Assembly (NCBI GenBank): GCA_937883785.1
Contig: CALGDE010000166.1
Location: 1 to 64,000, forward strand
From: an uncultured cyanobacterium
Lineage (GTDB): Bacteria; Cyanobacteriota; Cyanobacteriia; CACIAM-69d
Length of the DNA: 64,000 bases
Direction of reading: 5' to 3'
Shown in pieces: positions 34,061 to 35,620 of the stretch. The notes beneath the pieces were generated by a model. That model ran no database searches. It was given only the letters and a program-made list of their open reading frames with translations, and had not been told where the DNA came from. The first letter of the stretch is position 1. Each line of letters opens with the position of its first letter. The position numbers were made by a program, and so were the translations under genes.

Positions 34061-34693
34061 TCAGGGAACTTGGATTTGTGATGCGATTGATTTAAGAATT
34101 TGCAGTACTTGATAGAGTGAGTTCGTTCGCGATCGCCGAGCAATTACATCAGATAAATCAAACCGCTTAGTTTCCCCTTGAACCACCTTTAAAAAGACAA
34201 AACTTACCCCATTTGTGACCAAACCATAGGTAGGTAGTTTAGTATCTACACCGGCCATATAAGCCAGCGCTTGGGGGATCGCCGTATTCACATCAAAGGT
34301 GGTTTCTTTAGACTCAATAATCCCTCGCCAAAGTTGATTGTGAATTACGAGGAAATCAATACGTCCTCGCAAATTTTCTTGCTGGACTTGAGATTCAATC
34401 ACCACAGGAACTTCAGATCGAATCCGAAACGGCGAATCATATAATCCTGCCATTTCTAGCAGCGGCGACACCACTAAAACGTTGACAATTCCTTCATCAA
34501 CCTTGCCTGAATCCAGATGGTAATCGAGGCGATCGCGCAGTTGATCTAGCTTGGCAATGTCGCGATCGCTCAACTCCGGCAACTCGCACGACCACTCCTC
34601 AAAAAACAGTTCATCCACAGCCCAAACCAGGCCAAAATGCTGGCGAACATCATTCAAACTTTTGATAGCCTGTCGAACTGCAGTTTCAATCAT
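34061..34693 (-). CDS. HSDR_N-like PD-(D/E)XK nuclease domain protein
   Basis: A 210-residue protein resembling the stand-alone relatives of the N-terminal nuclease domain of type I restriction subunit R. The core is GRIDFLVIHNQLWRGIIESKET (about 107-128), containing the Asp and the Glu-x-Lys of the PD-(D/E)XK site. A Gln-containing helix (AIPQALAYMAG) and YGLVTNGVSFVFLKV, which are typical of the family, follow. It has no helicase or methylase partner. It is 21 bp downstream of the small GN-motif gene and on the same strand, so the two are probably co-transcribed. The fold is well supported by pattern, but the biological target is unknown. Confidence 0.75.
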   Translation of the reverse strand: MIETAVRQAIKSLNDVRQHFGLVWAVDELFFEEWSCELPELSDRDIAKLDQLRDRLDYHLDSGKVDEGIVNVLVVSPLLEMAGLYDSPFRIRSEVPVVIESQVQQENLRGRIDFLVIHNQLWRGIIESKETTFDVNTAIPQALAYMAGVDTKLPTYGLVTNGVSFVFLKVVQGETKRFDLSDVIARRSRTNSLYQVLQILKSIASQIQVP

Positions 34694-34714: not shown

Positions 34715-35095
34715 TCAGCCACCTTGAGCAAAACCTTTGATGGCAGAGATCAGCATATTAAGAGCGATGCTGCTATGAAGCTTTTCAATAGATTTTTCAA
34801 CTCCTGTAGCAATAGCCTCCTGTCCAGCGTTTTTTAAACGTTTTATCAGCTTAGAACGGCTGGAAATCTGACCAACGACTTTTCCTGCAACCGCGATTTC
34901 TTCAGCCTCAGTCAGTGCACGTCCTTCCACATCAATACATTCATCAATCAGATCGTTGAGCTCAACCACAATTTCTGAAAGTGAGTCTTGGTCAAGATAA
35001 TTTACGCTCGCCACATTGCTGACATTATTTGCGGCTCCTGAAATTACGTTTCCCTGGACAGATCCACCGCTGATGTGGATATTATTATTTCCCAT
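34715..35095 (-). CDS. small protein with N-terminal GNVISG motif
   Basis: A 126-residue protein with an excellent ribosome binding site (AAGGAGG, complement of 35106-35112). Residues 1-28 are Asn/Ser/Gly-rich and strand-like (ISGGSVQGNVISGAANN). The rest is helical and charged (SEIVVELNDLIDECIDVEGRALTEAEE, then a basic helix RSKLIKRLKNAG and a final amphipathic helix). The first segment matches the C-terminus of the protein encoded just upstream: both have the pattern I-x2-S-x3-GN-(V/I)-I-(S/A)-G-x-A-x2-(V/I)-x-N. I do not recognise a named family. The shared motif suggests that the two proteins contact each other or a common partner. Confidence 0.65.
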   Translation of the reverse strand: MGNNNIHISGGSVQGNVISGAANNVSNVASVNYLDQDSLSEIVVELNDLIDECIDVEGRALTEAEEIAVAGKVVGQISSRSKLIKRLKNAGQEAIATGVEKSIEKLHSSIALNMLISAIKGFAQGG

Positions 35096-35128
35096 ATCAA
35101 TAAAGCCTCCTTTTAGCTAGCCTAAAAG

Positions 35129-35620
35129 TTACAGATTGTAGATATCTTTGGCATCACCAGCAATGATATTTCCGGTAATTTGGGACTCTTGAATGGTGAT
35201 CTCGTAAACTTTAGCTTCATCCGGCGTCTCAAGAATCTTATAGATATTGTTTGTGATTTCTTTTCCACCTTTCTGATCGCCGCTCAAAAACAACACTAAA
35301 GATCCAGAGGTCAGTTCAAACAGTAAACCTGGCTTCCTCAACTTAGCTAAGTTAACAATCGTCAAGAGCAAACCAACGATCCAAAAAGGGATCGACAAGC
35401 CTCCTTGACCAAATCCCGATCCTGCCACCAAGATAGCGAAAAGGGTGATGATGATGCCCCACATCAGTTGGGTCATTGAGGCAAGATTGAATTCTCCATA
35501 CTCGAAGCTAGTAAGCTGCTTCAGTGGATACACAACTGTGCCAAACTTTATTGATTTCTGCGACAGAATCACCGTTGCTTTATACGAGATTATCGTTGCT
35601 CTTTTATCTAAGCTTGCCAT
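35129..35620 (-). CDS. small membrane protein with C-terminal GNIIAG motif (DUF6232-like)
   Basis: A 163-residue protein. The N-terminal strand region (ATIISYKATVILSQKSIKFGTVVYPLKQLTSFEYG) and two transmembrane helices (about 53-69 and 76-92) are followed by a strand-rich cytoplasmic part and the C-terminal tail SQITGNIIAGDAKDIYNL. This layout is like DUF6232-type proteins, an assignment from memory and tentative. GAGGTG precedes the ATG at 35620. It appears to be the first gene of a four-gene minus-strand operon (gaps 33, 21 and 55 bp). Its tail motif recurs at the start of the next protein. Confidence 0.65.
   Translation of the reverse strand: MASLDKRATIISYKATVILSQKSIKFGTVVYPLKQLTSFEYGEFNLASMTQLMWGIIITLFAILVAGSGFGQGGLSIPFWIVGLLLTIVNLAKLRKPGLLFELTSGSLVLFLSGDQKGGKEITNNIYKILETPDEAKVYEITIQESQITGNIIAGDAKDIYNL

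Follow-up and report, generated by a model that had tools for sequence, protein, structure and literature searches.

Two adjacent genes on the minus strand of a 64,000-nucleotide stretch of DNA from an uncultured cyanobacterium (the window) encode a small membrane protein, A, and a predicted soluble helical protein, B, which carry similar short segments at the C-terminus of A and the N-terminus of B. This pair exemplifies a more general pattern: in relatives of the two genes the segment varies between loci yet, as judged by sequence comparison, matches within each locus. We think it likely that the segment is a tag that couples A to B as such; that the coupling takes an amyloid-like form is plausible and is held more tentatively. 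The positions of the genes and tags are compiled in Table 1.

Table 1. Features of the A–B locus in the window (positions counted from the first letter of the window)
Feature	Positions	Strand	Basis
Gene A, 163 aa, DUF6232-like membrane protein	35129..35620	(-)	open reading frame as given in the earlier note
Gene B, 126 aa, N-terminal tag and helical domain	34715..35095	(-)	
A tag, C-terminal, residues 141–163	35132..35200	(-)	ungapped alignment and shuffles
B tag, N-terminal, residues 6–28	35012..35080	(-)	ungapped alignment and shuffles
B C-terminal helical domain	34718..34984	(-)	low-confidence model, mean pLDDT 49
A/B spacer, 33 bases, AGGAGG upstream of the B start	35096..35128	(-)	sequence
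Gene C, HSDR_N/PD-(D/E)xK-type, 21 bases downstream of B	34061..34693	(-)	family matches

Both open reading frames exist where and as an earlier note on this DNA had placed them, and the similarity that it reported between the end of A and the start of B is real. Protein A ends in ITIQESQITGNIIAGDAKDIYNL (residues 141–163), and protein B, which starts with MGNNNIHISGGSVQGNVISGAANNVSNV 33 bases past the end of A on the minus strand, contains IHISGGSVQGNVISGAANNVSNV at residues 6–28; the two stretches align without gaps and with 8 of 23 residues identical. The alignment scores 43 (BLOSUM62, gap 11/1), a value reached by none of 2000 shuffles that kept composition (mean 22, maximum 42). An empirical null of 362 further pairs of neighbouring open frames on one strand, drawn from the window and the fetched loci, gave a median of 19 and a 99th percentile of 41. 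Three of these pairs score at least 43: one involves a broken TPR-like gene, and the other two involve B-domain genes whose partners are not of the DUF6232 type. The start of the interval given in the earlier note, 35042–35197, truncates the B copy. A degenerate DNA pattern for the core alone (GN, then I/V/M, then I, any of several residues, and G) has nine matches in the 4.84-Mb genome, four of which fall in the two paralogous A–B cassettes; the bare core is therefore not rare, and the evidential weight lies in the paired terminal match. Lack of conservation in orthologues had been named as the finding that would speak against the motif; GN-[FILV]-[IV]-x-G is present at both termini in the paralogue on C152 and in several other genomes.

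The first search compared each full window protein with 386 cyanobacterial genomes; it was the source of the first ten scored loci and revealed a paralogous A–B pair in the same genome (C152) as well as further pairs elsewhere. In order to avoid selection on the motif, two models of the A domain with the tail removed (A3 and A5) were also used. Their matches comprise 18 places in 12 of the 386 genomes, 41 places in 25 of 61 genomes for family f10, 8 places in 8 of 217 genomes for family f7 and two places, both already known, in 2 of 14 genomes for family f2, and the result lists overlap one another. A scan of a genome collection yielded one locus only, plasmids gave no match to window B or to the A domain of L018, and one scan of viral contigs gave no match to A. 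All open reading frames are longest open frames rather than curated gene models. Altogether 54 cyanobacterial A loci were examined, and the 45 with a readable A tail and B head were scored; 35 of these were first found by the tail-free models and hence were not selected on the tail. The nine loci left out of the pair statistics are G039:C142, L183 and L184, which have an overlapping HEAT layout with a single motif, L175, which has an in-frame stop inside B (the head motif is visible by eye), L190, in which A extends beyond the motif (also visible by eye), L177, L179 and L199, in which A or B is broken, and L186, a genuine miss in which the neighbour of the A gene is unrelated and unmatched. 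Kept among the 45 are L037, where A is a 66-aa open frame that has lost its 5′ part, and L189, which has a stop within the matched stretch of the A frame; two short fragments, G421:C30 and G425:C17, lie outside the 54 loci. In L060, L183 and L184, from three genomes, the frames of the A and B relatives overlap, have HEAT repeats in common and contain one motif only; this may be a conserved overlap or a frameshift.

When 45 residues of A tail were compared with 55 residues of B head, 44 of the 45 pairs matched at shuffle p ≤ 0.01, the sole exception being L171 (p 0.035). Own pairs have a median score of 73 (33–118), compared with a cross-locus median of 28–30 where the A domains are less than 40% identical. 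Over 18 clusters defined at 50% A identity, the own-pair scores sum to 1272 versus 615 ± 65 for permuted pairings (0 of 100,000 as high), and the similarity between tails correlates with that between heads at 0.64 once the similarities of both folded domains are removed (0 of 2000 permutations as high). Several motif classes can be told apart by eye: GN-[FILV]-[IV]-Q-G in L016, L017, L172 and L195; SIGVGY...QIGG in L018, L024 and L197, with SFGVG in L035; SVGGSVTAG-[ND]-IGGSSSS in L020, L023 and L164–L167; RSVNIGG...NLGDG in L021; a IGSPVVSGHVGGDV-like form in L033, L034, L193 and L194; [YF]N-x-x-x-GDI-x-N-x-x-G-x-F-x-x-G in L037, L188 and L189; and LHGNATTGD in L196. Between such classes the match is locus-specific, and this pattern, found at the same two termini throughout the matching pairs, lends good comparative support to the strand-pairing or co-assembly tag suggested in the earlier note. 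The window tail scores 58 with the head of its C152 paralogue versus 43 with its own head, and a foreign head outscores the own head for 6 of the 18 representatives of the clusters, so that the pairing may not be specific within a class.

The tag ends a median of 3 residues (maximum 10) before the C-terminus of A; in B, its median starting point is residue 5 (maximum 20). Tags of the 18 cluster representatives are rich in Gly, Asn, Ser and Val and poor in Pro, Leu and Lys, and they display a hydrophobic i/i+2 alternation that was equalled or exceeded in 74 of 5000 shuffles; the helical region of B behaves in the opposite way. Composition and alternation together fit a tag of the β-arch type, a fold believed, according to excerpts of PMC9815663, to be common to at least some amyloid signalling motifs. 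Separately, a 317-aa open frame at L116:14047-15000 ends in KFITNINEAHGIHIGDNYS, a tag-like C-terminus that scores 42 with the next gene.

Window A matches the Pfam family DUF6232 (PF19744) with 13.7 bits (E 0.089), under the gathering cut-off of 27.4 bits, and two of its relatives, in L018 (28.0 bits) and in the C111 copy of the same genome (33.5 bits), lie above it. The protein features a predicted TM hairpin at about residues 49–68 and 79–93, followed by a helix (116–131) and the terminal tag. Its AlphaFold2 model, computed from two sequences (mean pLDDT 61), contains five strands, the helical hairpin spanning residues 49–93, two further strands, the helix at 116–131 and two tail strands that are of low confidence (137–143 and 148–154). 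A is DUF6232-like and probably PH-like, the PH fold being a seven-strand barrel closed by a C-terminal helix. The top structural alignments of A include PH-domain chains (GRK2, Btk, Rtt106 and a Shewanella DUF1696 protein), with Z of 4.7–5.8, values similar to those of unrelated rows. A Foldseek search with the A model gave nothing at E ≤ 0.001, the best row being a chain of an outer-membrane lipoprotein complex (0.0095) and the other 49 rows shown being proteasome subunits. The second helix of the hairpin is followed by a basic run, KLRK, which under the positive-inside rule suggests that both soluble parts of A are cytosolic.

Protein B has no usable match in Pfam, NCBIfam or PADLOC; the A and B proteins that were run against PADLOC all lacked a match there, and the 126-aa window B has no NTPase match. 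The single-sequence model of B is all-helical with a mean pLDDT of 49, and its tag region, at pLDDT <50, is drawn partly helical; with models of such low confidence for both A and B, the assignment of strands to the tags is weak. In the B genes of several loci in the range L164–L195, a tag of the same kind is followed by one of at least two unlike helical C-terminal regions (an EIQxLLxQL type and a PDSSEPNKPGIKE type). Gene C or a relative of it adjoins all three cassettes of this genome (window, C152 and C111, the last on the opposite strand) and 0 of the 42 other loci. Gene C was rejected as a general component of the system because it is present at 3 of 45 loci, in this genome only.

A model of the B helical domain alone (A4), with the motif excluded, found 46 places in 21 of 146 genomes. 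A usable frame is available for 42 of these, and a Gly/Asn-rich segment, judged by eye, precedes the B domain in 36 of the 42. In a test of neighbouring genes that considered protein ends only, a matching end was found next to 10 of 16 standalone B genes (≤160 aa), six of the ten being DUF6232-type pairs, and next to 2 of 26 B domains inside longer proteins (Fisher p 0.00025). Two more standalone cases match on a direct test, G118:C144 (L016) and G125, where the partner's motif lies inside a TM protein (score 57, shuffle maximum 38), and four (G022, G039:C1, G000:C147 and G118:C118) were unmatched in every test. Standalone B genes elsewhere match NACHT, NB-ARC and CHAT-ATPase neighbours; outside the DUF6232 type, the partners of B are a NACHT-HEAT protein with the motif at its C-terminus (L107), a NACHT protein and a CHAT-ATPase with the motif at the N-terminus (L095 and L101, respectively), an NB-ARC protein with the motif in its N-terminal region (L104), and a 140-aa open frame with no Pfam match whose flanking gene is Roc GTPase-like by eye (L106). 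In many long proteins the motif and the B domain are fused in cis. A segment like FGGGLVNADTVTAGQIGGN recurs in three genes in a row at L101:291-5481, which encode pentapeptide-B, a 541-aa B protein and the CHAT-ATPase. A Roc-COR-LRR GTPase and a pentapeptide-repeat protein, at L115:5027-7918 and L111:5900-7900 respectively, also end in the B helical domain, with a motif in front of it.

A gene with an HTH-like N-terminal domain lies on the opposite strand, 151–474 bases upstream of A, at 25 of the 45 loci (L018, L024, L032, L178, L181 and 20 further; range searched 3.5 kb). At about ten loci this gene is long enough (379–488 aa read) for a STAND NTPase, at the others it is short, and NB-ARC was found in the five tested, namely four full-length genes and that of L018. 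The upstream HTH/STAND gene was rejected as a third carrier of the tag, as its linker gave 665 versus 659 ± 21, with 7881 of 20,000 as high (25 loci). The window locus has neither an adjacent STAND gene nor a divergent HTH or HTH-NB-ARC gene.

The two segments are probably a homotypic β-strand tag resembling those of amyloid signalling (BASS-like), which would tie a protein anchored in the membrane to a soluble, helical one. What comparison of the proteins establishes is the terminal position of the tags, their matching and co-variation across loci, their composition and an alternation that would fit β-strands; direct coupling of A to B is the best reading because of the terminal placement, the homotypic matching and the co-variation. 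The two copies would represent two halves of one tag, such that the tail of membrane-anchored A and the head of soluble B would take the same strand-rich, Gly/Asn-rich structure and co-assemble, and the helical domain of B would thereby be recruited to the membrane or clustered there. The binding may take the form of cross-β, amyloid-signalling-like stacking. The neighbours of related genes suggest that the system may belong to STAND/NLR-type conflict or cell-death signalling.

The coupling step would be the same, and only the last step different, if the tags joined A and B as a finite β-zipper or strand-exchange heterodimer of fixed stoichiometry rather than as an open-ended amyloid. Such a zipper predicts the same sequence pattern and agrees with the two tail strands in the low-confidence model of A. 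We regard it as rather unlikely, however, since the two tags are alike (homotypic) and not complementary, and their G/N/V-rich, proline-poor make-up together with the NACHT, NB-ARC and CHAT partners found elsewhere better fits the amyloid signalling motifs that have been described. It is this composition and these partners of sister genes that favour the amyloid-signalling form.

Less probable still is that A and B are pieces of an ancestral A-motif-B protein, with the duplicated motif as a split-gene scar that restores the joint. The three genomes with a single motif and with HEAT-bearing A and B frames that overlap give a hint, and only a hint, of the split fusion that the earlier note had raised, and the many genes in which motif and B domain are fused in cis to long proteins point in the same direction. 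Against it, no uninterrupted A–B fusion occurs among the loci examined and the partners of B vary widely; a split of this kind would in any case be compatible with a coupling tag and not opposed to it.

Codon usage bears on whether the match instead arose incidentally, from a local duplication of DNA or from gene conversion between the neighbouring genes, and persists without function. Where residues are identical in the 45 pairs, they share a codon in 351 of 642 cases, where 265 are expected from codon usage, and an excess is seen in some loci, such as L194 (19 of 21, 10.3 expected) and L164–L168. For these loci the duplicated short strand module proposed in the earlier note is plausible. The window copies, on the other hand, are 51% identical in DNA and have the same codon at 4 of 8 shared residues (3.6 expected), so that no recent duplication of DNA is visible there. 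C152, C111, L021, L181 and L182 similarly lack a codon excess and yet retain the protein match; in L021, 14 of 24 residues are identical and the same codon is used at 1 of the 14 (4.9 expected). Recent DNA duplication was rejected as the sole cause for the window, C152, C111 and L021, and is allowed as a contributor elsewhere. A functionless by-product is very improbable, as a neutral duplicate would decay, whereas 44 of 45 pairs match over 18 diverged clusters. The simplest account is that selection acts on the match between the proteins and that one end is now and then recopied from the other. It is scarcely credible that the tags, compositionally biased as they are, represent unrelated low-complexity segments made alike by their Gly/Asn/Ser richness, because composition-keeping shuffles and permuted pairings of equally biased tags do not reproduce the match, and chance or composition was rejected as the cause on the same grounds.

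The proposed coupling tag most readily invites comparison with BASS1-10, for which excerpts of PMC7889193, PMC8086366 and PMC9815663 describe one short motif that is common to the products of two adjacent genes, C-terminal in one and N-terminal in the other, an arrangement also found in the window pair. Other likenesses to BASS, as far as those excerpts go, are the several mutually different motif families, the occurrence in cyanobacteria and the NACHT, NB-ARC and CHAT partners, which here are seen in related loci. According to excerpts of PMC7889193 and PMC8086366, BASS were defined from BELL-NLR neighbour genes. In the window, by contrast, the partner with the C-terminal motif is a DUF6232-like TM-hairpin protein with strands instead of a BELL domain (or, less often in BASS, CHAT or TIR), and the partner with the N-terminal motif is a 126-aa protein without an NTPase instead of an NLR (NACHT/NB-ARC). 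Since neither a BELL domain nor an NLR is present, we place the pair outside BASS, as a variant that would work like BASS without being a member; this separation follows the excerpted descriptions of BASS, and some of the motifs may be in the BASS1-10 or 'other' sets of Dyrka et al. 2020.

Fungal HET-S/NWD2 and HELLP/PNT1 and animal RHIM are described in excerpts of PMC12881547 as carrying one short motif on both the receptor and the effector side, in the fungal cases in neighbouring genes; a membrane-acting partner is a further likeness to the window pair. The window pair differs in having no NTPase receptor, and the likeness is one of working principle. Its membrane partner has a predicted TM hairpin and not a HeLo/4HB domain. 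The effector-associated domains (EADs) and Death-like adaptors (excerpts of PMC7159879 and PMC8195603) are similar in that homotypic coupling is proposed to join parts encoded by separate genes, in the conflict systems of cyanobacteria and of other multicellular bacteria; by those descriptions EADs are folded domains, whereas the tags here are terminal segments of about 20–35 residues. A search of titles and abstracts, with the 2020 BASS paper outside its scope, found no description of the A–B system, and the name DUF6232 was not met within the limited set of literature text covered.

Whether bacterial signalling amyloids operate in NLR-independent pathways is a question posed in the excerpted text of PMC7889193, and one that the window pair makes accessible to testing. 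The A–B loci may conceivably, though we hold this with more doubt than the amyloid-like form itself, represent such NLR-independent amyloid signalling in cyanobacteria, in which each locus would have its own private copies of a signalling amyloid motif, one on a PH-like protein anchored in the membrane and one on a soluble adaptor with a helical domain. Selection would keep the copies matched, with recopying from one gene to the other at times, and a single genome could contain several mutually insulated channels; if this is true, the answer to that question would be yes. A search handle that is free of the tail is offered by the gene order itself: a DUF6232-like gene, then a gene for a tagged helical protein and, in many loci, a divergent HTH or HTH-NB-ARC gene. 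The system is a compact one of two genes in which the pairing of the tags is directly testable, and the changes in the motif over dozens of loci form a natural specificity panel. If the tags do form signalling amyloids, the paradigm would reach past NLR-BELL receptor-effector pairs to membrane anchors and small adaptors.
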